A stretch of 64,000 nucleotides of DNA from Thermoclostridium caenicola (GTDB taxonomy: Bacteria; Bacillota; Clostridia; DSM-8532): the NCBI RefSeq assembly GCF_900142095.1, contig NZ_FQZP01000002.1:62001-126000 (forward strand), read 5' to 3'. The position numbers and the translations under genes are program-made. This document shows positions 11,191 through 28,927 of the stretch, piece by piece. How positions within the stretch are numbered: position 1 is the first letter of the stretch; the number at the start of each line of letters is the position of its first letter. The notes under the pieces were generated by a model that saw only the letters and a list, made by a program, of their open reading frames with translations, had not been told where the DNA came from and did no database searches.

Positions 11191-12474
11191 ATGATGAATA
11201 TCCTGTCCGTTGACAGCAAACATTTTGAGCAACAGGTATTGAAATCTACCTGTCCGGTTGTGGTCTATTTCCGGTCCGATGATTGCCTGCCGTGCATAAC
11301 ATTTGACGGCATTTTCGAGCGGGTCGCGCCTTCCAGGGAGTCGATCCGCTTTGTGAAGATATTCACACCCGAAAACCGGCAACTGGCCGAGCAGTATGGG
11401 ATCAAATCCTTTCCTACCCTCCTGTTCTTCAGCGACGGAAAAGAGGTTTGCCGGCGTTTGACCGGATATATCAGCTATCAGGAATTCAGGGAAGCTGTGG
11501 ATATGCTGGATGCCCGGATTTGCCCGCCTGATGACAGGGCCGTGGTTCATTGCGACGTGCTCATCATAGGGGCAGGCCCGGCCGGGCTGACGGCTGCCAT
11601 CTATGCCGCCAGGAGCAAATTGTTTACCGTGGTTCTTGAATCAGGTGTCCCGGGTGGGCAGGTCATCACTACCTACCAGGTGGAAAACTATCCCGGAACC
11701 AGCGGCGCCATCAGCGGCTTTGACCTGATGGAAAACATGATCAGGCAGGCACGGGAATTCGGGGCCCGGATCGACGACATGCAGGAGATCGAGGAAGTCC
11801 GGCTTGAGGGAAACGAAAAGCATGTGAGGACCAAAGCGTGCGATTATTATGCCAAGGCCGTCATCATTGCCACCGGGGCTGAGCCGAAAAAGCTTCCTGT
11901 CGCCCAGGAAAGCGTATTCAGGGGCCGCGGCATCCACTATTGCGCCTCCTGCGACGGCGCTTTCTACCAGAACGCGGAACTGGCCGTAGTGGGGGGCGGC
12001 GTTGCCGCGTTTGAGGAGGCCGTATTCCTGACCCGGTTTGCCAGGAAGGTGACCATCCTGATCCGCTCCGACACCCCCAGGGCCCCCAGCTCCTACGTGG
12101 AGGATGCCCTGAAGAATCCCAGGATCGCGATACGCTTTAATACTGTCATAACGAAGGTCCTGGGCGATGATTTCGTCCATGGCGCCGTACTGGAGAACAC
12201 AAAGACCGGCGAGACTTCAGAGATGAAATTGGACGGTATCTTTGTCTATATCGGCTCCCAACCGAACACGCAGCTTTTCAGGCCCTGGCTGAACCTATCC
12301 GACAGGGGTTATATCATCACCGGCGAGGACATGGCCACAAACATACCAGGGGTTTTCGCCGCCGGGGATGTGCGTGAAAAAGAGGTGCGCCAAATCGCAA
12401 CCGCTGTGGGCGACGGTACCATCGCTGGCATCATGGCGGAAAAATACATCCATGCGTCAAAAGAGGCGCAATGA
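11191..12474 (+). CDS. trxB: Thioredoxin-thioredoxin reductase fusion
   Basis: A 427-residue fusion. Residues 1-105 are a thioredoxin fold whose active site is DDCLPC rather than WCGPC, with the cis-Pro in SFPTLLFF. Residues 115-425 are a flavin-dependent thioredoxin reductase: the FAD dinucleotide motif VLIIGAGPAGLTAAIYAA, the redox pair CASCDGAF in place of the usual CATC, the NADPH motif AVVGGGVAAFEEA and the C-terminal GVFAAGDV. A reductase carrying its own N-terminal thioredoxin-like domain could pass electrons within one chain. Start ATG at 11191 after GGAGG. The gene is convergent with the cyclase gene and close to ccdA-tlpA, which also handle thiols. Confidence 0.92.
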   Translation: MMNILSVDSKHFEQQVLKSTCPVVVYFRSDDCLPCITFDGIFERVAPSRESIRFVKIFTPENRQLAEQYGIKSFPTLLFFSDGKEVCRRLTGYISYQEFREAVDMLDARICPPDDRAVVHCDVLIIGAGPAGLTAAIYAARSKLFTVVLESGVPGGQVITTYQVENYPGTSGAISGFDLMENMIRQAREFGARIDDMQEIEEVRLEGNEKHVRTKACDYYAKAVIIATGAEPKKLPVAQESVFRGRGIHYCASCDGAFYQNAELAVVGGGVAAFEEAVFLTRFARKVTILIRSDTPRAPSSYVEDALKNPRIAIRFNTVITKVLGDDFVHGAVLENTKTGETSEMKLDGIFVYIGSQPNTQLFRPWLNLSDRGYIITGEDMATNIPGVFAAGDVREKEVRQIATAVGDGTIAGIMAEKYIHASKEAQ

Positions 12475-13332: not shown

Positions 13333-13998
13333 ATGGATTATATTCTTGCCCTGATCGAAGGCATTGTCACATTTGTGTCGCCCTGCCTGCTGCCCATGCT
13401 GCCCATCTATGTTTCCTACTTTGCCGGAGGGCAGGACAGCAAAAGGAGAATGCTCGGCGCCCTTGGTTTTGTGCTGGGTTTTACGCTGGTGTTTGTGTCG
13501 CTGGGAGCCTTTGCCGGATCGGTCGGGCATCTTCTCAGGGAATATGCCCTGGCTATCAACCTGGTAACCGGCGCAGTGGTCGTGCTGTTCGGCCTCAATT
13601 ACCTTGGGCTTCTGAGGCTCCCCCTGCTCAACAAGGTATCCGGGATTGGAAGTACGCCCAAAAATCCGGGTTTTTTCTCATCCATACTGTTCGGCATGAT
13701 CTTTTCCATCAGTTGGACACCCTGCGTCGGCACATTCCTGGGTTCGGCCCTCATGCTGGCGGCCAATTCCCGGAATGCTGCAAAGGGCATCCTGATGCTG
13801 CTGCTTTACTCCTTAGGGCTGGGCATCCCTTTCATCATATCCGCCTGGCTGCTGGACAGGCTGAAAGGAACCTTCGATTTTCTCAGGCGTCATCATGGCA
13901 CCATCAACACCGTATCAGGCCTGTTGCTTGTGCTTGTTGGCCTGGCCATGATGACGGGAATGCTGAACAGGCTTCTGGCCTATCTCTCCCTGCAATGA
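13333..13998 (+). CDS. ccdA: CcdA-type thiol-disulfide transporter
   Basis: A 221-residue membrane protein with six hydrophobic helices. Both redox segments are present: TFVSPCLLPMLPIYVSYF (about residues 13-30) and ISWTPCVGTFLGS (about 122-134), each with the Pro-Cys pair. CcdA carries reducing equivalents from cytoplasmic thioredoxin to extracytoplasmic thiol proteins. AAAGGAG precedes the ATG. The next gene is a membrane-anchored TlpA-like thioredoxin 67 bases downstream, a natural electron acceptor, and a thioredoxin-reductase fusion 0.9 kb upstream is a plausible donor. No cytochrome c assembly genes are visible, so a general thiol-reducing role is more likely. Confidence 0.93.
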   Translation: MDYILALIEGIVTFVSPCLLPMLPIYVSYFAGGQDSKRRMLGALGFVLGFTLVFVSLGAFAGSVGHLLREYALAINLVTGAVVVLFGLNYLGLLRLPLLNKVSGIGSTPKNPGFFSSILFGMIFSISWTPCVGTFLGSALMLAANSRNAAKGILMLLLYSLGLGIPFIISAWLLDRLKGTFDFLRRHHGTINTVSGLLLVLVGLAMMTGMLNRLLAYLSLQ

Positions 13999-14065: not shown

Positions 14066-14689
14066 ATGACCAAAACCACAAAGACTTTGCTTGCCATAGC
14101 GGTATTCGCCGTATTTCTGGCAGGTGCGGTCATCCTCTACAACAACCTGTCGGAGCGGTATCCCGCCGAGAATCCACTGGGCACCCCCGAACCGGGAACA
14201 CAGGAACCGCCGGTGCAAGGGGTTTCGGAAAGCCCGGAACCAGGCACCACTGAAAAAGCCAGACTGGAGGCGCCGGACTTTACCGCCGTCGACGACGAGG
14301 GGAATGAGGTCAGGCTCTCCGACTTCCGGGGAACACCGGTGGTCCTCAATTTCTGGGCCAGCTGGTGCGGACCATGCCGGTCGGAGATGCCCGCCTTCAA
14401 CAAGGTTTCCCAGGAATATAGCGAGGATGAGCTCGTTTTTCTGATGGTGGATTTGGTGGACGGCCAGCGGGAAACGGTTGAAACAGGCAGAGCCTATATC
14501 GAGGAGAACGGTTTCACTTTCAGGGTATTGTACGACACCACCCAGGATGCGGCATATACCTACGGGATTCGTTCCATCCCCAGCACGCTGTTCATCGATA
14601 AGGACGGGTATATCGTTGCCGGTGTTGAAGGCGCGCTCAGGGAGGAAATCCTCAGGCGCGGCATCGCCTTGATACTGGAATCGGAATAA
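14066..14689 (+). CDS. Membrane-anchored TlpA/ResA-like thioredoxin
   Basis: A 207-residue protein with an uncleaved N-terminal anchor (about residues 6-25), a Pro/Glu/Gly-rich linker (about 33-72), then an AhpC/TSA-type thioredoxin fold. The redox site is NFWASWCGPCRSEMPAF (about 98-114) and the cis-Pro lies in IRSIPSTLFIDKDG. It should sit on the outer face of the membrane and be kept reduced by CcdA, encoded just upstream in the same operon. AGGAGG precedes the ATG. The targets could be spore or envelope proteins; ResA and StoA are the nearest known roles. Confidence 0.9.
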   Translation: MTKTTKTLLAIAVFAVFLAGAVILYNNLSERYPAENPLGTPEPGTQEPPVQGVSESPEPGTTEKARLEAPDFTAVDDEGNEVRLSDFRGTPVVLNFWASWCGPCRSEMPAFNKVSQEYSEDELVFLMVDLVDGQRETVETGRAYIEENGFTFRVLYDTTQDAAYTYGIRSIPSTLFIDKDGYIVAGVEGALREEILRRGIALILESE

Positions 14690-17436: not shown

Positions 17437-19854
17437 TCAGCGCGACAGCATCTTCGCCAGGCCTTTAAGCCGCTTTCCATTGCACAGCAGAACCAGACCC
17501 TCGATCATTTTTTTGCCGATCCGGCCGCCGGTGTTCTGATTGAGCTGTCTGAGCGGCGCCTCATCAAGGGATTGCATGATCATGCGCAGGGTCTTTTCAT
17601 CGGTATCCCGGTTCATCCTTCTCGCCGCTGCTGCCAGAATCCTGTAAAAGATCCTGCCGGCCAACACCTGACGGATCTCGTTGATGGTGGAATCAGGGGT
17701 AAACGTCCCTTTCCGGTGGATCGGCGGATGCACGACGGGTTTTCCGTACAGGGCGTCAAACTCTTGCTTGGGAATGTTGCAGCCGGGCTTCGGATGATAG
17801 TAGGAGGGCAGCGGTTCCCTTTTGTCCCAGACGGCGGGATCCACCTCACCCGTGCCTTCAATCCGGACACGGCCGCTCAGCCTGATATCCCGGGAAGAAG
17901 CGCCCACCAGGATCTCAAACTCTCCGGACTCCACCTGCCAGCTTTTTGAATGAGTATCGTAAAAGGCAAAGGCCCGCCTGTCCAACCGGAAACGGACTTC
18001 CTTCTCCTCTCCGGGCTCAAGGCTGATCTTGGCGAATTCCTTCAGTTCCTTGTCGGGTCTGAAGATGGTACTTTCAACATCGCGGACATAAACCTGGACG
18101 ATCTCCTTTCCGGCCATGGAGCCGGTATTCCTGATCCGGAAGCTGATGTTCAGGATACCGTTTTCGTCCGTTTTTTCAGGTTCAATAACCAGATCGCTGT
18201 ACGCAAAGCTTGTATAGGACAGGCCGTGTCCAAAGGGGAACAGCGGTTTCACACCGGCCTTATCATAGAAACGGTAGCCCACATAGATGCTTTCACGGTA
18301 TTCAACGCCCTTGGGGCCCATGGGGAACCAGGCGGTTGCCGGGCAATCCTCCAGCTTCTCAGGGAAGGTCTCGGCCAGCTTCCCGCAGGGATTCGCTTTT
18401 CCGTAAAGAAGCTTCCAGAGAGCAGTTCCGCCCCCCTGACCGGAAAGGTAGAGCTCCAGCACCGCCTTGGCGCTGCCTATCCACGGCATCTCCACCGGTG
18501 CACCGTTGCACAGGACAACGACCACATTGGGATTTGCCCTGGCCACCTCCGCAATGAGCACGTTGTGGGCAGGGGGCATCCGCATGTGGATCCTGTCAAA
18601 CCCTTCCGATTCATAGTCATCGGTGAGCCCGGCCAGGATCACCGCCACATCCGCTGCTTTGGCCGCATTGCAGGCTTCTTCAATGAGTTGCCTGTCAGGT
18701 GCGTCGGTTCGGATGTCATATCCCCGCGCATAGGTGATATCGGAAGCATTGGGCAGCGTCATGGCCTGATCATAGGCATTGTCCAGCCGCCACGGATTCA
18801 CCATGGAGCTTCCGGCCCCCTGGTAGCGCGGATGTTTGGCAAACTCACCGATCAAAGCGATGCGCATCCCCTTTTTCAGCGGAAGAATGCCATCCTCGTT
18901 CTTAAGCAGGACAGCGCCTTCACATGCGGCTTCTACGGCCAGCCGATGATGGGCCTCCCTGTCAAAACGGTAGCCATCCGCTTTATTGGCCATATATTGG
19001 AGAATAAGCTTTATAAGCCTTGCCACGGCTTCATCCAAAACCGATTCATCAAGTTCTCCTGACCGTACGGCATCCACGATGGCCTGGTCGTTCTCCGGAA
19101 ATACGCCAGGCATTTCCAGATCCAGCCCGGCCTTCAGGGCAGCCACCCGGTCGCTGACAGCGCCCCAGTCCGACACCACGACACCGTCATAGCCCCATTC
19201 TTCCCGGAGAATCTGGGTCAGGAGCAGCCGATTCTGGCTGGCATAGGTGCCATTGACCTTGTTATAGGCACACATGACGGTGCGCGGACCGGCTTTTTTA
19301 ACAGCCCGTTCAAAACCGGCCAGGTAAATCTCCCGCATGGCCCGTTCATCCACAAAGGCATCGATGGTCATGCGATTGCTTTCCTGGTTGTTGACGGCAA
19401 AATGCTTCAGCGAAGTTCCAACGCCTTTGGACTGAACACCCTGGATCAAGGCGCCCGCCAGTTCGCCGGAAAGAAAGGGATCCTCGGAGAAATACTCAAA
19501 GTTGCGTCCGCAAAGGGGCGAACGCTTGATATTGGCTCCCGGCCCCAGCAACACACCCACATCTTCCTGCAGGCATTCCTCACCCAGGGCCTCTCCGACC
19601 CGGCGCAGCAGATCCCTGTCCCAGGAAGCGGCCAGGCATGATGCCGTCGGGAAACAGGTTGCCTCATAGCTTCCACCCGAAAAATCCTTCGACTGCTTCT
19701 GCTTCCTCAAGCCATGGGGACCGTCGGTAAGCATGACGGACGGCAACCCCAACCTCTCGATGGCCTTGGTGTGCCAATAGTCCTCGCCAGAGCATAGCGA
19801 AGCTTTTTCCTGAAGTGTCAGCCTGTTAACAATCTCCCTGATCTGTTCTTCCAT
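17437..19854 (-). CDS. bglX: Glycoside hydrolase family 3 beta-glucosidase
   Basis: An 805-residue cytoplasmic GH3 enzyme with no signal peptide. The N-terminal barrel contains LTDGPHGLR, GVGTSLKHFAVNNQESNR (substrate-binding Lys-His) and VVVSDWGAV, whose Asp (about residue 232) is the nucleophile. A five-stranded domain follows, and the C-terminal fibronectin-III-like domain includes FPFGHGLSYTSFAY and EIVQVYVRD. This order matches clostridial beta-glucosidases acting on imported cello-oligosaccharides or related beta-glycosides. The extra ~100-residue helical tail is common in this branch. ATG at 19854 follows GAGGGGG. The symbol is family-based; beta-xylosidase or glucosylceramidase-like activity cannot be excluded. 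Confidence 0.88.
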   Translation of the reverse strand: MEEQIREIVNRLTLQEKASLCSGEDYWHTKAIERLGLPSVMLTDGPHGLRKQKQSKDFSGGSYEATCFPTASCLAASWDRDLLRRVGEALGEECLQEDVGVLLGPGANIKRSPLCGRNFEYFSEDPFLSGELAGALIQGVQSKGVGTSLKHFAVNNQESNRMTIDAFVDERAMREIYLAGFERAVKKAGPRTVMCAYNKVNGTYASQNRLLLTQILREEWGYDGVVVSDWGAVSDRVAALKAGLDLEMPGVFPENDQAIVDAVRSGELDESVLDEAVARLIKLILQYMANKADGYRFDREAHHRLAVEAACEGAVLLKNEDGILPLKKGMRIALIGEFAKHPRYQGAGSSMVNPWRLDNAYDQAMTLPNASDITYARGYDIRTDAPDRQLIEEACNAAKAADVAVILAGLTDDYESEGFDRIHMRMPPAHNVLIAEVARANPNVVVVLCNGAPVEMPWIGSAKAVLELYLSGQGGGTALWKLLYGKANPCGKLAETFPEKLEDCPATAWFPMGPKGVEYRESIYVGYRFYDKAGVKPLFPFGHGLSYTSFAYSDLVIEPEKTDENGILNISFRIRNTGSMAGKEIVQVYVRDVESTIFRPDKELKEFAKISLEPGEEKEVRFRLDRRAFAFYDTHSKSWQVESGEFEILVGASSRDIRLSGRVRIEGTGEVDPAVWDKREPLPSYYHPKPGCNIPKQEFDALYGKPVVHPPIHRKGTFTPDSTINEIRQVLAGRIFYRILAAAARRMNRDTDEKTLRMIMQSLDEAPLRQLNQNTGGRIGKKMIEGLVLLCNGKRLKGLAKMLSR

Positions 19855-19982
19855 AGCGACCCCCTCATCTGTAGCCAAGTCTTTATTCCAATTATATCAT
19901 ACCCTTCCTTATAGCCAACGAAGCATGCCGCTCACCGTAAGCCGAACGCCTCTGTCTTAAGCGCAGGGATGTCCCTGACAGG

Positions 19983-20057: not shown

Positions 20058-20492
20058 TCAATCCTCTGCCGCCGGTTCGTTATGGTTTTGGGAATAGCCA
20101 TACCGGCTCAGAAACTCAGTCAGACGCTCCATGGTATGCGCGCTGACGGCATGCTCCATCCGGCAGGCATCTTCCTCCGCTATGTCCGGATCCACCTGCA
20201 GCACCTCGATGAGAAAGCGCTTGATCTGCCGATGGATCTGCCTGACTTTTTCAGCCATATGGCGTCCCTCATTGGTCAGTTCCACAGGCCCATACATCTC
20301 CTGGCGCACAAGGCCCTGTTTCTTGAATTTGCTGAGCGTTTGGTTCACGCTGGCCTTGGCGATCTGGAGCTTGTTGGCTATATCGGTTACCCGAACCGCT
20401 TCTCCGCTTTCCTCAAGTTCCAGGATAGCTTCCAGGTAGTCCTGCATGGATGCGGAAAGCTTTTTCAGTTCTGAAATGTGAGCCACCCCCAT
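20058..20492 (-). CDS. DtxR/MntR-family metal-dependent regulator
   Basis: A 144-residue regulator. Residues 5-65 form the winged helix: SASMQDYLEAILELEESG then VTDIANKLQIAKASVNQTLS. Residues 70-140 form the metal-binding and dimer domain, including the HAVSAHTMERLTEFL region and EEDACRMEH with His, Cys, Glu and Met ligands typical of DtxR/MntR. It lacks the SH3-like third domain, like MntR. The ATG at 20492 follows GAGAGG. A DtxR-type palindrome sits on its own promoter, so self-repression by iron or manganese is likely. No transporter gene is adjacent, so its targets lie elsewhere. Confidence 0.85.
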   Translation of the reverse strand: MGVAHISELKKLSASMQDYLEAILELEESGEAVRVTDIANKLQIAKASVNQTLSKFKKQGLVRQEMYGPVELTNEGRHMAEKVRQIHRQIKRFLIEVLQVDPDIAEEDACRMEHAVSAHTMERLTEFLSRYGYSQNHNEPAAED

Positions 20493-20506
20493 ACTTAGGC
20501 CTCTCA

Positions 20507-20524
20507 TGTTAGCTTTATCTAACA
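20507..20524. promoter_or_regulatory. DtxR-type operator over the regulator's own start region
   Basis: TGTTAG-CTTTAT-CTAACA (plus strand) is a perfect six-base inverted repeat with the TTAG/CTAA half-sites known for DtxR/IdeR boxes. It begins five bases downstream of the -10 box, covering the expected transcription start. Confidence 0.65.
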
Positions 20525-20529
20525 TTATC

Positions 20530-20557
20530 ATTATAGCCCAACCCTGCCAGAAGTCAA
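20530..20557 (-). promoter_or_regulatory. Promoter of the DtxR-type gene
   Basis: TTGACT (20557-20552) and TATAAT (20535-20530) with a 16-base spacer in the minus reading, immediately ahead of the DtxR-type operator. Confidence 0.7.
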
Positions 20558-20589
20558 GCCAGGAAGACACAGACTGTCATCAGGCTGTC

Positions 20590-20621
20590 AAAAAAGAGGT
20601 ACGATGCCGTACCTCTTTTTT
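20590..20621 (-). terminator. Strong terminator of the glutaredoxin gene
   Basis: AAAAAAGAGGTACG (20590-20603) pairs perfectly with CGTACCTCTTTTTT (20608-20621) around a four-base loop. The stem overlaps the glutaredoxin stop codon and ends in a run of T in the minus reading. Confidence 0.9.
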
Positions 20622-20850
20622 AAGACCCAATCATTTCGTCGATCTTCTTCTGGTCAAATCCGACAATAATCTGCCCGTTGATGTCGATTACCGGAACTCC
20701 TCTCTGACCGGATTTCTCGATCATTTCGATGGCTTTCCGGGGGTTTCTGGATACATCGATATCTTCGAAAGCGATGTTTTTGGAGGCCAGATAGTTTTTT
20801 GCCATGGTACACCACGGGCATGTAGGCGTGGAATAAACCTTTACAGTCAT
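20620..20850 (-). CDS. NrdH/glutaredoxin-like small thiol protein (CPWC)
   Basis: A 76-residue glutaredoxin fold with the redox site STPTCPWCTMAKNYL at residues 7-21, the cis-Pro in RGVPVIDINGQ and the C-terminal GFDQKKIDEMI. CPWC differs from the CPYC of classical glutaredoxins and the CVQC of NrdH. Short proteins of this kind are usually reduced by thioredoxin reductase in glutathione-free bacteria. I took the ATG at 20850, seven bases after GGAGG. The promoter just upstream is overlapped by a CsoR-type operator and the CsoR-like gene is the next one upstream, so the protein is probably induced by copper (or persulfide) stress. A copper-thiol repair role is inferred. Confidence 0.88.
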   Translation of the reverse strand: MTVKVYSTPTCPWCTMAKNYLASKNIAFEDIDVSRNPRKAIEMIEKSGQRGVPVIDINGQIIVGFDQKKIDEMIGS

Positions 20851-20891
20851 CTCATTCCCTCCTTTGCACATCCGGTGACAACCCAGCCGTG

Positions 20892-20912
20892 ATATACCCC
20901 CTATGGGTATAT
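20892..20912. promoter_or_regulatory. CsoR-type copper operator
   Basis: ATATACCC-CCTAT-GGGTATAT is a perfect eight-base inverted repeat of the TACCC(C)-GGGTA type bound by CsoR repressors. Its right end overlaps the -10 box of the glutaredoxin promoter (20911-20916). Confidence 0.75.
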
Positions 20913-20939
20913 TATAGCAAAATTCTACAATTTCCACAA
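20911..20939 (-). promoter_or_regulatory. Glutaredoxin gene promoter
   Basis: In the minus reading TTGTGG (20939-20934) and TATAAT (20916-20911) are 17 bases apart. The -10 hexamer overlaps the CsoR-type palindrome, so repressor binding would block polymerase. Confidence 0.7.
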
Positions 20940-21021
20940 ATCTTTTTGGTTCCCCACCTATCTTGGCTTGATACTGCCGGTCCAATCCAGACAATTCATG
21001 GATGCGCAAAAGAGGCAAAAA

Positions 21022-21303
21022 TCAGTCCGTAAGGTGCGTAAGGCTTTTTATGGCTCTGGACAGCTCTTCCGCCGCTTTTTCCCTGTCCTGCGCCGAAACC
21101 ATGTCCTCCAGGCATGATACGGCATGCCGCTCCAGGATCAGGCTGCCCACCTTTTGAAGCGCCGCCCTGGCTGCCGCAATCTGGGTCAGTATATCCATGC
21201 AGGGCTTATCTTCAGCGATCATCCGCAAGCCCCTGTTCTGCCCTTCGATACGGCTGAGCCTTTTGATAAGGTCTTCCCCTGACGTTTTGTGCCGAGTCGG
21301 CAT
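21022..21303 (-). CDS. csoR: CsoR-family copper-sensing repressor
   Basis: A 93-residue all-helical CsoR/DUF156 protein. The copper ligands are at the family spacing: Cys in EDKPCMDIL (about residue 44), His 25 residues later and Cys four residues after that in ERHAVSCLED. The His argues for Cu(I) sensing (CsoR) rather than persulfide sensing (CstR), whose members keep only the two Cys. RIEGQNRGLRMI in helix 1 is typical. The ATG follows GGAGG. It is upstream of the glutaredoxin gene on the same strand, with a CsoR-type operator between them. No copper ATPase or chaperone gene is in the window. Confidence 0.9.
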   Translation of the reverse strand: MPTRHKTSGEDLIKRLSRIEGQNRGLRMIAEDKPCMDILTQIAAARAALQKVGSLILERHAVSCLEDMVSAQDREKAAEELSRAIKSLTHLTD

Positions 21304-21563: not shown

Positions 21564-22133
21564 ATGAAGCATAGATATGCTGCATTGATGATTCTCATGC
21601 TTTGCGCATTCGTTTTGGCAGGATGCGGCGCAGAACCCGCTCCCAATGTCACAACTCCTCCTGCCAATACCGGTGGTTCTACCAGCAGCCCTGATGCCTA
21701 CTCAACACCATCCATGGTAACCGACGCTGCAGGATTTGAAAAGGCCATCAGCAAGGACGGTGTGTGGATTATCTGCCTTCTGAACGACCTGACCATCAAC
21801 AAGGAGCTTGTTCTGGATGGTACCTTCACCAACGGCAAGAAGGACGACAAGGGTAATGATATCATCCAGAGGAAGATCGCCCTCTATGAGCAGGATCAGA
21901 ACCGCAACATCACGGCCAGATACACACTCGCCGTTCCCAAGCTGACCATCAACAGCCCCAACGCCAGCATCCAGCATGGTACATTCAAAGGCGATCTGTA
22001 CGTTAATGCTGAGAACTTCCAGCTGGTGGATACCACAGTGGAGGGTAATGTTTACTTCGCTTCGGATGCCATCAAGAACAGCTTCAAGATGGACGAAGCC
22101 AGCAAGATTACCGGCGAACAGAAGGTTCAGTAA
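21564..22133 (+). CDS. Lipoprotein of unknown function
   Basis: 189 residues. A lipoprotein signal ends in the lipobox FVLAGCGAEP (Cys about residue 21), then a Thr/Ser/Pro-rich linker (about 25-50). The mature domain, about 140 residues, resembles one rung-series of a right-handed beta helix: repeated hydrophobic strands such as LTINKELVLDG, PKLTINSPNASIQHG, GDLYVNAENFQLVD and GNVYFASDAIKNSF, each a potential coil. That pattern suggests a small surface beta-solenoid that binds polymer or wall, but no family was recognised. AGGAGG precedes the ATG and a strong terminator follows, so it is a monocistronic gene. Confidence 0.8.
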   Translation: MKHRYAALMILMLCAFVLAGCGAEPAPNVTTPPANTGGSTSSPDAYSTPSMVTDAAGFEKAISKDGVWIICLLNDLTINKELVLDGTFTNGKKDDKGNDIIQRKIALYEQDQNRNITARYTLAVPKLTINSPNASIQHGTFKGDLYVNAENFQLVDTTVEGNVYFASDAIKNSFKMDEASKITGEQKVQ

Positions 22134-22160: not shown

Positions 22161-22193
22161 AGAGGGCTGCAGCAAAGCAGCCCTCTTTCTTTC
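22161..22193 (+). terminator. Terminator of the lipoprotein gene
   Basis: AGAGGGCTGC (22161-22170) and GCAGCCCTCT (22177-22186) form a 10-bp perfect stem followed by TTCTTTC. It separates the gene from the convergent MerR gene. Confidence 0.85.
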
Positions 22194-22956
22194 AGCTTTT
22201 TTGGCCCGTGTATATCAGGATGGCATCTCGCAGGAAGGCGGCCATACCCGGCTGTTCCTTGTCGTAATGGGCTCTGAACCTCTCATCAGCCACATACATC
22301 TCCGCCAATCCCGCATGGGCCTCCCTGGAGTAATCGTCCCAGAAGAAGCACAGCCACTGCCGGTGCAGGTCGGCAGCCTCCTGGGCAAGCTCACTGGCCG
22401 GATCGCCGCTCTTGAACGCTTCCCGCAGAACCTCTGTCAGCTCATTGGACAGCGCCTCCAGTTGCGCATGCTGCTCCCTGGTCATGTTCAGCACTTTCCG
22501 GCCTGATTGGTCCACGGCTTCATCACCGTATTTCTCACGGGCCTCCTTTCCGAATTTTCTCTCATTCTCCTCAACAAGCTGCTGTTTGAAACCCATGAAT
22601 TTTTCCTGATCGCTCATTTCCATTCTCCCTCCGCATGCCGCAATGGTCTTCTCCACATTGGCCAGGAGCAGATCCAATTGGGCCCGTTTTTCCAGAAGCT
22701 TCTCACGGTGTTCCATCAGCGCCTGCATCCTGTCAAAGTTGGGTGAGGAGAGGATCGCCATGATCTTCTCCAGGCTGACGCCCAGCTCCCTGTAAAAGAG
22801 GATCTGCTGGAGCCTGTCAACTTCCCTTGTTCCATAAATCCGATATCCCGACGGATTGATTCTGGCCGGCTTCAGAAGACCAATCTCGTCATAATACCGG
22901 AGTGTCCTGGGGCTCACGCCTGCCAGACGTGCCAGCTGCTGAACGGTGTATTCCAT
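22192..22956 (-). CDS. MerR-TipAS transcriptional activator (Mta/TipA-like)
   Basis: A 254-residue regulator. Residues 1-70 are a MerR winged helix (VQQLARLAGVSPRTLRYYDE, then INPSGYRIYG). A coiled-coil dimer helix follows to about 115. The C-terminal TipAS antibiotic-recognition domain (about 130-250) includes KYGDEAVDQSGRKVLNMT and the final HYDKEQPGMAAFLRDAI. TipAL and Mta bind drugs through this domain and activate multidrug genes. The promoter has the long spacer typical of MerR-regulated genes, so it probably autoregulates. No drug exporter is directly attached, although a nitroreductase gene lies upstream on the same strand. Confidence 0.9.
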   Translation of the reverse strand: MEYTVQQLARLAGVSPRTLRYYDEIGLLKPARINPSGYRIYGTREVDRLQQILFYRELGVSLEKIMAILSSPNFDRMQALMEHREKLLEKRAQLDLLLANVEKTIAACGGRMEMSDQEKFMGFKQQLVEENERKFGKEAREKYGDEAVDQSGRKVLNMTREQHAQLEALSNELTEVLREAFKSGDPASELAQEAADLHRQWLCFFWDDYSREAHAGLAEMYVADERFRAHYDKEQPGMAAFLRDAILIYTGQKS

Positions 22957-24640: not shown

Positions 24641-27600
24641 TTATACCATGCCGCTCGCCTTTTTGGCCTTGTGGCCGTATGGGCCCTGGACCGGGCGGTT
24701 GTCCGGTTTGCCATGCTGCAATTCCTCAAAAGCCCGGGACAGCATGAGCTTAATCCGGTTGAGCTGGTTCACTTCGCTGGCGCCGGGATCGTAGTCCACG
24801 GCCACGATATTGGTTCCGGGATAAACCCTTCTGAGTTCCTTGATCATGCCCTTGCCGGTGACGTGGTTGGGCAGGCAGGCAAAAGGCTGCATGCAGATAA
24901 TATTCCTGACCCCTTTTTGAATCAGTTCCACCATCTCGCCTGTGAGAAGCCATCCTTCACCCGCCTGATGCCCGATGTCCAGCACGGTTTGAGCTCCCTT
25001 TGCGATGTTCTCAATGGTTTCAGGCTCATAGAAGCGTTCGCTGGCGGCAAGCGCTTCCCGGTAGGGTTTCCTGAACTGCTCGATGATCCGGATGGCGGCC
25101 TTGCCCAGAAGCTGCGCCGATTTTCTTCCGGAAAGGTACCTGTACTTGTAATCCTGGTTATAGGCGCAGTACAGGAGAAAATCCGTCAGGCCCGGCACGA
25201 CGGCCTCCGCTCCTTCTTCCTCCACTGTCCTGACCACGTTGTTGTTGGCCGTCGGATGGAACTTGACCAGTATTTCACCCACCAGGCCCACCTTGGGCTT
25301 GACGTCATTGACGATCTCCAGCCGGTCGAACTCTTCCACGATGCTTTCGATATTGCGTCTGAATTCGGCATAATCAGCCCGTGCCAATGAACGCTTGCAG
25401 ATTTCAGTCCATTTTTCATAGAGGGCGTTGGCCGACCCCTTGATCTTCTCGTAGGGTCTTACCCGGTACAGGACATTCATCAGCAGATCACCATAAACAA
25501 GGCCCATGGCAGCCCGCTTCAGAAGCCCGTAGGAAAGCTTGAGCCCGGGATTCTTCTCCATGCCGTTGGCATTGAGGGAAATGACGGGAACATGACCAAA
25601 ACCGGCATCCTTAAGGGCTTTCCTGAGAAATGCGATGTAGTTGGTCGCCCGGCAGCATCCTCCGGTCTGGGTGATCATGACGCTGGTATTGCTCGTATCA
25701 TAGGCTCCCGACTTCAGGGCTTTGATGATCTGGCCGACGACAAGGATGGAAGGATAGCAGGCATCGTTATTGACATATTTCAAACCCTCATCGATGGCCT
25801 GGTGGTCAATGGCGGGGAGCACCACTACCCTGTAGCCCGACAGGTTGAAGGCTTCTTCCAGGAACTGAAAATGAATCGGGGACATTTCGGGAGCCAGGAT
25901 GGTATGCTTTTCCCTGTGTTCCGGCAGGAACGGCACCTTGACGAACCTGGCAGATCCTTCGGGCCTGGCGGTCTGCCTCTTCTCCCTTTCCAGGATGGCG
26001 GCCTTCAGGGAACGCAGCCTGATCCTTGCGGCTCCCAGGTTGTTGACCTCATCGATCTTGAGCACGGTATACAGCTTTCCGTGGGCATTCAGGATCTCCT
26101 GAACCTGGTCGGTGGTGACGGCGTCCAGTCCGCATCCGAAGGAATTCAGCTGCACCAGTTCCAGATCCTTTTGGGTCGCTACAAAGGATGCCGCCGCATA
26201 CAGCCTGGAATGATACGCCCACTGATCCACCACCCTCAGCGGCCTTTCTACCCTGCCAAGATGAGCTAACGAATCCTCGGTGAAGACCGCCATGCCCAAT
26301 GCATTGATCAGCTCGGGAATCCCGTGGTTGATCTGGGGATCGAGGTGATAGGGCCTGCCGGCAAGTACGATCCCCTTCACGCCTGCTTCCCGGATCTGCT
26401 GAAGCGCTTCCTCCCCTGCCTTCCGTATCTCTTTCCTGAAGGATTCCTGCTCACGGTACGCCTTTTCCACGCTTTTGGCGATCTCCTGCCTGCTGATGCC
26501 GAAAGGCGAGAGTTCCCGGAAAAGTCTCCTCATCAGCCTCCTCTTGTTGTCATAGGGCAAAAAGGGCTTCATATAAAGGATATTTCTTTCCCTCAGCGCA
26601 TCCGCATTGTTCTTGATGACCTCAGGATAGGAAGAGACTATGGGGCAGTTGAAATGGTTGTCCGCATCCTTTTGCTCCCGGTTTTCCTTCACGATGCAAG
26701 GATAAAAGATGAAACCGACGCCCTTGTCCACCAGGTCCATGATATGCCCGTGGACCATTTTGGCCGGATAGCATACAGACTCCGACGGAATGGTCTCCAT
26801 CCCCTTATTGTACAGCTCAGGTGTTGACCGTTCCGACAGTTCCACCCGGAAGCCCAGTTCAGTGAAGAAGGTAAACCAGAAGGGATAATTTTCATAGATG
26901 TTCAGGGCCCTGGGAATGCCTACCACTCCCCGGCGCGCTTCGGAAAGGGGCAAGGGCTTGTAGCTGAAAAGCCTGTTGTACTTATAGGCAAACAAGTTGG
27001 GAAGTTTGCTGTCCCCGGCATCCTTTCCGGAACCCCTCTCGCACCGGTTGCCGGATATGAACCGTTCGCCGTTCCCGAAATCATGGATGGTCAAAAGACA
27101 TCTGTTGGCACAATGCCGGCATCGCGTGATGCGGCTGGACAAATGGAAGGCATCCAGTTCCCCGGCCTTTGCCATCTGCGACCGGGCGCCTTCCCGATAC
27201 CTTTCCCTGGCGATGAGGGCCGCACCGTATGCGCCCATGATCCCGGCAATATCGGGGCGTATGGCCTCTTTCCCCGTAATCAGTTCAAAGCATCTGAGCA
27301 CCGCATCATTATGGAAGGTGCCGCCCTGAACGACTATCCTTTCCCCGAGTTCCTCCGGGTTCTTCAGCTTGATGACCTTGAACAGGGCATTTTTGATGAT
27401 GGAATAGGACAAGCCCGCCGAAATATCTCCGAGACTTGCGCCTTCCTTCTGGGCCTGCTTGACCCGGGAATTCATGAAGACCGTACACCTTGATCCCAGA
27501 TCCACCGGGCTCTCGGCCAGCAGCGCTTCCCTGGAGAAGGCATCGACATCCATATCAAGGGATCCGGCAAAGGTGTCCAGAAACGATCCGCAGCCCGACG

Positions 27601-28927
27601 AGCAGGCTTCGTTGAGCAGGATGCTCTCAATATTGCCATCCTTCACCTTCAGGCATTTCATATCCTGCCCGCCGATATCCAGGATGAAATCAACACCGGG
27701 GCAGAAATGCTCCGCAGCCTTGTAATGGGCAATGGTTTCAATCTCGCCCGTGTCAATCCTGAGGGCAGCCTTCAGCAACGCTTCCCCATAGCCGGTAACC
27801 GCCGACCAGGCGATCTCCTTTCCGGCCGGGAGCTGGCGGTACATGGCTTTCAGAGCCTTTATGGTGGATTCCAGCGGACTACCCTCATTGCTGCCGTAAT
27901 GGGTGTACAGGAGCGCGCCATCCTCGTCGATGAGGGCTATTTTTGTGGTGGTGGAACCCGCATCGATCCCCAGGAACCATTTCCCGACGGCATCTTCGGG
28001 CTTGCGCCTCAATACCTTGTGGGCGTCATGGCGTTTTTTGAAAGCCTCATATTCCTGCCTGTTTTTGAAAAGGGCAGGCAGACGGCTGGTTTCCGTAAAG
28101 ACCTTTCCTGCGTTCCGGTCAAGCCTGTCCAACAGAGCCTTAAACCTTACCGGTTGCTGGTTGGAAGCGGAAAGAGCGGCACCGATGGCCACAAACAACT
28201 GGGCATGCTCGGGGATGACGACCTGCTCCTCTGCCAGTGCCAGAGTCTCCACAAAACGTTTCCTGAGTTCGGGCAGGAAATGCAAAGGTCCCCCCAGGAA
28301 AGCGATTCTGCCCCGTATGGGCCTTCCGCATGCCAGGCCGCTGATGGTCTGGATCACAACGGCCTGGAATATGGAAGCGGCAATATCGTTCCTGTCGGCA
28401 CCCTCGTTCAGAAGCGTCTGGACATCGGTTTTTGCAAACACGCCGCACCGCGCCGCTATGGGATAAATCACCTTATGATGCCGGGCCATCTCGTTAAGCC
28501 CGGCTGCGTCCACCTTGAGCAGGGAGGCCATCTGATCGATGAATGCGCCCGTCCCGCCGGCGCAGGTACCGTTCATCCTCTGCTCCAGGCCTCCGCTGAA
28601 ATAGGTTATCTTGGCATCCTCTCCGCCAAGTTCGATGGCTACATCGGTTTCAGGGTGGAAGGCCTCGATAGCCCTGGCTGCGGCTATGACTTCCTGGGTA
28701 AACGGGACCTCCATCTGCCTGGCGCAGTTCATTCCACCCGAACCGGTTATGCTTAAGGTCACTTCGGCGTTCCCAATCAGGCGGCTGATATCAGTAAAGA
28801 TATCCCTCAGCTTGTTCCCTATGTCGGCATAATGCCTCTCATATCGGCTGAAAACCATTGCACCGGTGTGGTCAAGGATAACCACCTTGATGGTGGTCGA
28901 GCCAATATCAACGCCTATACGATACAT
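24641..28927 (-). CDS. Giant 2-hydroxyacyl-CoA dehydratase activase / double-cubane-type protein
   Basis: 1,428 residues in one chain. There are two successive ASKHA ATPase (BadF/HgdC-type) domains: the first (about 4-255) has [15 protein letters not shown] and cluster Cys in [11 protein letters not shown] and AARCGVFA. The second (about 315-575) has [15 protein letters not shown] and cluster Cys in [11 protein letters not shown] and SRCTVFM. A Cys knot (CRHCANRC, about 605) precedes a DUF2229 domain with [19 protein letters not shown] and NHFNCP. An HgdB-like C-terminal part has [22 protein letters not shown] and [14 protein letters not shown]. Known relatives use ATP to push electrons to a very low potential on Fe-S clusters. 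The substrate is unknown and no CoA-transferase or dehydratase subunits adjoin. It is monocistronic. Confidence 0.88.

Follow-up and report, generated by a model that had tools for sequence, protein, structure and literature searches.

The window, a 64,000-nucleotide stretch of a Thermoclostridium caenicola contig, carries a gene for a small CsoR-family repressor and, 171 bp downstream on the same minus strand, a gene for a glutaredoxin (Table 1). The csoR product scored 82.6 bits against Pfam PF02583 (cut-off 22.8), which places it in this superfamily, and csoR is the only PF02583 gene in the whole 2.9-Mb genome. The grx product scored 102.5 bits against NCBIfam TIGR02196 (GlrX_YruB, cut-off 88.55) and has the CP[YW]C signature in the form CPWC. 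Directly after grx lies a gene for an MntR/DtxR-family regulator (20058-20570), as at the loci examined in the congeners G001-G003; there a ZIP-type transporter gene follows mntR, and in the window a beta-glucosidase-like gene (17437-19878) is found instead. On the other side, a genus-conserved lipoprotein gene without Pfam or NCBIfam match (21564-22133) is divergent from csoR; farther along are genes for a MerR regulator carrying a TipAS antibiotic-recognition domain (22192-22956) and for a 1428-aa protein (24641-28927) reminiscent, on visual inspection, of double BadF/HgdC-type CoA-dehydratase activators.

Table 1. Features of the csoR-grx locus and candidate redox partner genes in the window.
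Feature	Position	Strand	Remarks
csoR, CsoR/RcnR-family (DUF156) repressor, 93 aa	21022..21303	minus	PF02583 match; P2, C35, H60, C64
Weak -35 TTGTGG (predicted)	20934..20939	minus	17-bp spacer to -10
-10 box TATAAT of grx promoter	20911..20916	minus	2-bp overlap with operator; TATAAT/TATGAT at same position in congeners
Candidate operator, perfect inverted repeat ATATACCC-N5-GGGTATAT	20892..20912	strandless	between csoR and grx
grx, YruB/Cp9-type glutaredoxin, CPWC, 76 aa	20620..20850	minus	NCBIfam TIGR02196; presumed regulated gene
Thioredoxin domain-thioredoxin reductase fusion	11194..12474	plus	probable electron donor of glutaredoxin
CcdA-like membrane thiol transporter	13333..13998	plus	homologue in G089/G185 shares divergent operator region with grx
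ResA/TlpA-like thiol-disulfide oxidoreductase	14066..14689	plus	

A sequence-only reading of this DNA had claimed a perfect CsoR-type palindrome over the -10 box of grx, and we confirmed this: two 8-bp arms (20892-20899 and 20905-20912) are 100% complementary around a 5-nt loop and reach into the TATAAT box. The promoter is absent from the list produced by a simple promoter scan because its -35 element is weak. When the 19-mer was searched with at most one mismatch, the window contained one site and 100 of 100 shuffled windows contained none, so the palindrome is not a chance occurrence, and the same site was the only one at this threshold in the entire genome. Allowing two mismatches yielded noise (15 sites versus 23 in the reversed control). 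A second perfect 17-mer, on contig 5 (L003), was rejected as an operator because it falls inside an extended open reading frame judged guaA-like on inspection, and a search for the pattern TACCC-N4-GGGTA, which has the wrong loop length, returned nothing.

The order csoR-grx is the same in the congeners G003 and G004, where tblastn gave about 62% identity for CsoR and 78-80% for Grx. Across these two species and the window, ATATACCCATAGGGGGTATAT, which comprises the palindrome together with its lead-in, does not vary, whereas most of the flanking intergenic DNA has diverged. The congeners G001 and G002 possess both grx and the operator, and a Pfam search detected no PF02583 gene in either of them. 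In their DNA the old csoR promoter region (GGTAAAATAATGTCATGCTG) runs straight into the operator and then into grx, and it is this direct junction that points to a clean deletion as the probable cause of the loss of csoR; the two loci (G001:C66 and G002:C99; L083 and L086) amount to a natural csoR deletion experiment. The palindrome arms are perfect in G001 and carry one mismatch in G002. Such damage after the loss of csoR would fit a site selected through csoR, although two species cannot prove decay.

Since a DtxR/MntR-family gene adjoins grx in the window and in G001, G002 and G003, including both palindrome carriers that lack csoR, we considered whether the palindrome might be read by another regulator such as this MntR/DtxR-like protein, with csoR an unrelated neighbour. 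Against this, TACC...GGTA palindromes are of a known CsoR-family type (PMC7533328), one of the csoR-less species has acquired the arm mismatch, and unrelated genomes place the palindrome beside csoR or csoR-copA with no mntR adjacent in the stretches examined; we regard this explanation as highly improbable. Taken together, synteny, phylogenetic footprinting and the loss of csoR in two congeners support the proposal, already made in the sequence-only reading, that csoR, operator and grx constitute a regulatory unit.

We then considered what the repressor might sense. The complete Cys-His-Cys spacing claimed for the protein was borne out: Cys35, His60 and Cys64 align with the Cys, His and Cys of the nearest PDB relative, Geobacillus thermodenitrificans CsoR (4m1p, E 6e-16), and the full set is kept in each of the three csoR products of the genus, the window protein and its two orthologues. 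Nickel or cobalt, for which RcnR uses His64 and InrS-type proteins a His in the RIEGH motif, was rejected on the basis of the ligands, as the window protein has Cys64 and, in RIEGQ, Gln22; its score with the RcnR model was 30.9 of 138 bits. The N-terminus raised the possibility of a formaldehyde sensor like FrmR, which requires Pro2 and Cys35 (PMC5016687), given that the window protein combines a Met-Pro start with a Cys at exactly position 35 and that both genus orthologues also start with Met-Pro, unlike the other 43 members of the clade described below. However, no formaldehyde dehydrogenase or frmA/B-like gene was seen alongside in the three species, Pro5 of FrmR is absent, Glu64 of FrmR corresponds to a Cys, and the score of 26 of 133 bits against NCBIfam NF008464 lies below the cut-off, which makes an FrmR-like function very unlikely.

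To place the protein within its family, we used a sample of 139 sequences comprising 134 distinct family members, drawn with their gene neighbours from the window genome, from relatives and from 391 genomes belonging to the class, and five PDB-derived reference segments. The tree was built from 96 columns by a quick search and has many weak forks (deep-fork support 64-86), and neighbour labels, given where a sequence similar to a seed protein lay within about 1.5 kb, therefore denote links, not demonstrated regulation. The window protein grouped with its G003 and G004 orthologues (SH-aLRT 98) and fell into a set of nine (support 95) whose neighbours include CcdA/ResA (L056, L057), thioredoxin (L059) and rhodanese (L025, L026). 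The wider clade, separated by a weakly supported deep split, consists of 46 clostridial proteins, 36 of them with redox neighbours (Trx, Grx, RseC, CysK, CcdA/ResA or rhodanese), 10 unlabelled and none next to copA or copZ; redox and cop labels need just three changes on the tree. The His ligand was present in 56 of 56 cop-neighbour proteins versus 23 of 42 redox-neighbour proteins (Fisher p 5e-9, relatedness ignored), and within the clade the position is occupied by His in 24, Tyr in 20 and Gln in 2 members, which means that the ligand is lost in 22 of 46. Because the sampled clade never adjoins copA/copZ and often loses the His, the Cys-His-Cys set of the window protein is no proof of copper sensing. 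In two family-level relatives (G014, G018) members with His replaced by Gln adjoin rhodanese and have an ATACCCC..GGGGTAT palindrome upstream. In ten genomes (G089, G111, G167, G168, G094, G214, G093, G181, G204 and G160) copA and/or copZ adjoin the gene for a second CsoR, which is of a different type, and the redox-type protein lacks the His in G168, G094, G214 and G181; G185 and G189 have only a redox-linked CsoR, which keeps it. The presence of a redox-linked and a cop-linked CsoR in one genome resembles the CsoR/CstR pair of Staphylococcus aureus.

The window genome itself does contain a copA, encoding two HMA domains, on contig 57. The earlier statement that copA and copZ are missing therefore holds for the csoR-grx locus but not for the genome. 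No csoR adjoins this copA, and contig 57 contains no operator within two mismatches; the suggested search for the same operator before copA elsewhere in the genome was consequently negative, the single genomic site (at most one mismatch) being that before grx. As the sequence-only reading proposed, a true Cu(I) sensor could still employ the glutaredoxin in a branch of copper defence devoted to buffering or repair, as Cu(I) attacks thiols, and such a role is conceivable since the genus keeps the His and the genome, despite having copA, encodes no second CsoR, so that no paralogue takes over the copper function. The ligand set is complete, as in the structurally known CsoR, and the operator is identical in type to the csoR-copA operators of other clostridia. 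Yet the copA of the genome has neither operator nor csoR, the closest clade never lies beside copA/copZ and often lacks the His, and many relatives have separate copper-linked paralogues. Geobacillus/Bacillus CsoR, the copZA copper sensor, shares the Cys-His-Cys set and provides the best PDB match, but is found in a copZA context rather than next to grx and falls into another part of the tree. The idea of a copper-induced repair or buffering branch thus found no support in a clade that is devoid of copA/copZ neighbours and often without the His; the copper reading of this repressor is weak and we judge it unlikely.

We next searched the 391 genomes for TATACCCN5GGGTATA without reference to the position of csoR and examined the adjoining genes. 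The operator was found before csoR-copA or copA in many clostridia. In other families it was also detected before trxA-trxB in G189, G144 and G093, upstream of trxB-grx in G167 and of grx in G111, and ahead of Grx-like genes in G094 and G168. Further sites precede CcdA/ResA in G181 and, in G214, a Trx-like protein accompanied by CcdA. In G089 and G185, which represent two families other than that of the window, ccdA-resA and a YruB grx are divergent, with a palindrome near each promoter. By manual assignment, about 30 sites precede cop genes (six of them assigned by coordinates next to csoR alone), 14 redox genes, 5 ferredoxin-like and 7 other genes; a reversed-pattern control gave about 26 matches across the class, so some of the unlabelled sites are background. 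Given that the same sequence also precedes csoR-copA, the operator cannot separate a copper from a thiol effector. The palindrome also occurs before small ferredoxin genes (L180, L192, L215) and genes for polyferredoxin-like membrane proteins (L207, L214).

From the observed csoR-grx pair and its operator, the overlap of the latter with the promoter, the conservation of the site, and the clade with its neighbours, we infer the DNA binding, cysteine chemistry and effector of the repressor as follows. Its most probable signal is sulfur or thiol stress, which would make it a repressor of the thiol/sulfane-sulfur type, CstR-like in its logic. The reduced apo repressor would bind the palindrome, cover the -10/+1 stretch of the grx promoter and so prevent transcription; sulfane sulfur, persulfide or disulfide stress would then modify or link Cys35 and Cys64 and thereby release the repressor; and the induced glutaredoxin, fed by the Trx-TrxR fusion, could reduce persulfides, disulfides or peroxiredoxins and in this way restore thiols or reduce sulfane sulfur. 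We assign a probability of roughly 0.6 to this reading, namely that a repressor of the CsoR family governs a thiol-redox regulon and that sulfur or thiol stress triggers its release from the grx operator and supplies a TrxR-linked reductant. The individual steps have precedents: CsoR of Streptomyces coelicolor recognizes ATACCn6GGTAT, from which polysulfide releases it via Cys37/Cys66 (PMC7533328), TTHA1953 of Thermus is weakened by Cys oxidation while Cu, Ni and Co do not weaken it under reducing conditions (PMC10318464), and in Escherichia coli Grx and Trx act as reductants of sulfane sulfur, which induces them via OxyR (PMC6831875).

The proposed thiol/sulfur-stress switch differs from each known system in some respects. 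CstR, the CsoR-like sulfurtransferase repressor and persulfide sensor of Staphylococcus and Enterococcus, has likewise two conserved Cys and a similar TACC..GGTA operator, relatives of the window protein adjoin rhodanese, and many of these genomes contain a copper paralogue elsewhere. In contrast, the window protein keeps His60, which CstR lacks, and the target is a glutaredoxin gene instead of sulfurtransferase/SQR genes; no rhodanese, persulfide dioxygenase or SQR gene is linked at the csoR-grx locus. Identity to S. aureus CstR is low, at about 32%, a value to be taken as approximate. The sulfane-sulfur sensor of S. coelicolor (ScCsoR, SCO0620) is also CsoR-like, with two reactive Cys and the operator type given above (PMC7533328), but is actinobacterial, controls persulfide dioxygenase, rhodanese and TauE, and has 6 bases between the ATACC/GGTAT arms as opposed to 7 here. 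Thermus thermophilus TTHA1953 is a sulfur-linked CsoR-family repressor affected by Cys oxidation and not by metal (PMC10318464), although the sox genes it controls lie far from its own gene and its consensus lacks the G/C run.

As for the reductant, YruB proteins are Cp9-type redoxins, and Cp9 of Clostridium pasteurianum passes electrons from TrxR to a peroxiredoxin (PMC3720550). The Cp9/YruB glutaredoxin-Cp34 TrxR-AhpC system thus involves the same glutaredoxin family and type of TrxR partner (PMC3720550), but there grx forms an operon with the TrxR and peroxiredoxin genes, whereas here it stands alone under a CsoR-type operator. In the sister genus (G006, G012), grx is located directly 3' of a Trx-TrxR fusion gene. 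The fusion encoded in the window, approximately 8 kb from grx, is 50% identical to this homologue and for that reason the probable electron donor of the glutaredoxin. The fusion, CcdA and ResA are probable partners of the glutaredoxin, and none of the three genes in the window is preceded by the operator.

On a broader scale, a widespread clostridial CsoR branch, roughly half of whose members have lost the His, may act as the thiol/sulfane-sulfur switch of anaerobes (OxyR-/CstR-like), exerted via a copper-type operator on thioredoxin, glutaredoxin, CcdA-ResA and cysteine-synthase genes, a generalization to which we give even odds. Its components are of known kinds; what is apparently undescribed is the coupling of a CsoR branch to glutaredoxin and thioredoxin across Clostridia, which we did not find in the open-licence literature. 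"CsoR" genes in clostridial genomes are readily taken as copper sensors, and many annotations would be wrong if the clade senses thiol or sulfur stress; obligate anaerobes would gain a plausible dedicated thioredoxin/glutaredoxin regulator. The retention or loss of the His inside one clade would provide a natural series for the transition from metal to sulfur sensing on one scaffold. Within the same family, a distant second CsoR lineage of the LLKTARGQ type (L044, L045, L047) has thioredoxin immediately downstream, and in two of these three proteins the His is replaced by Gln.
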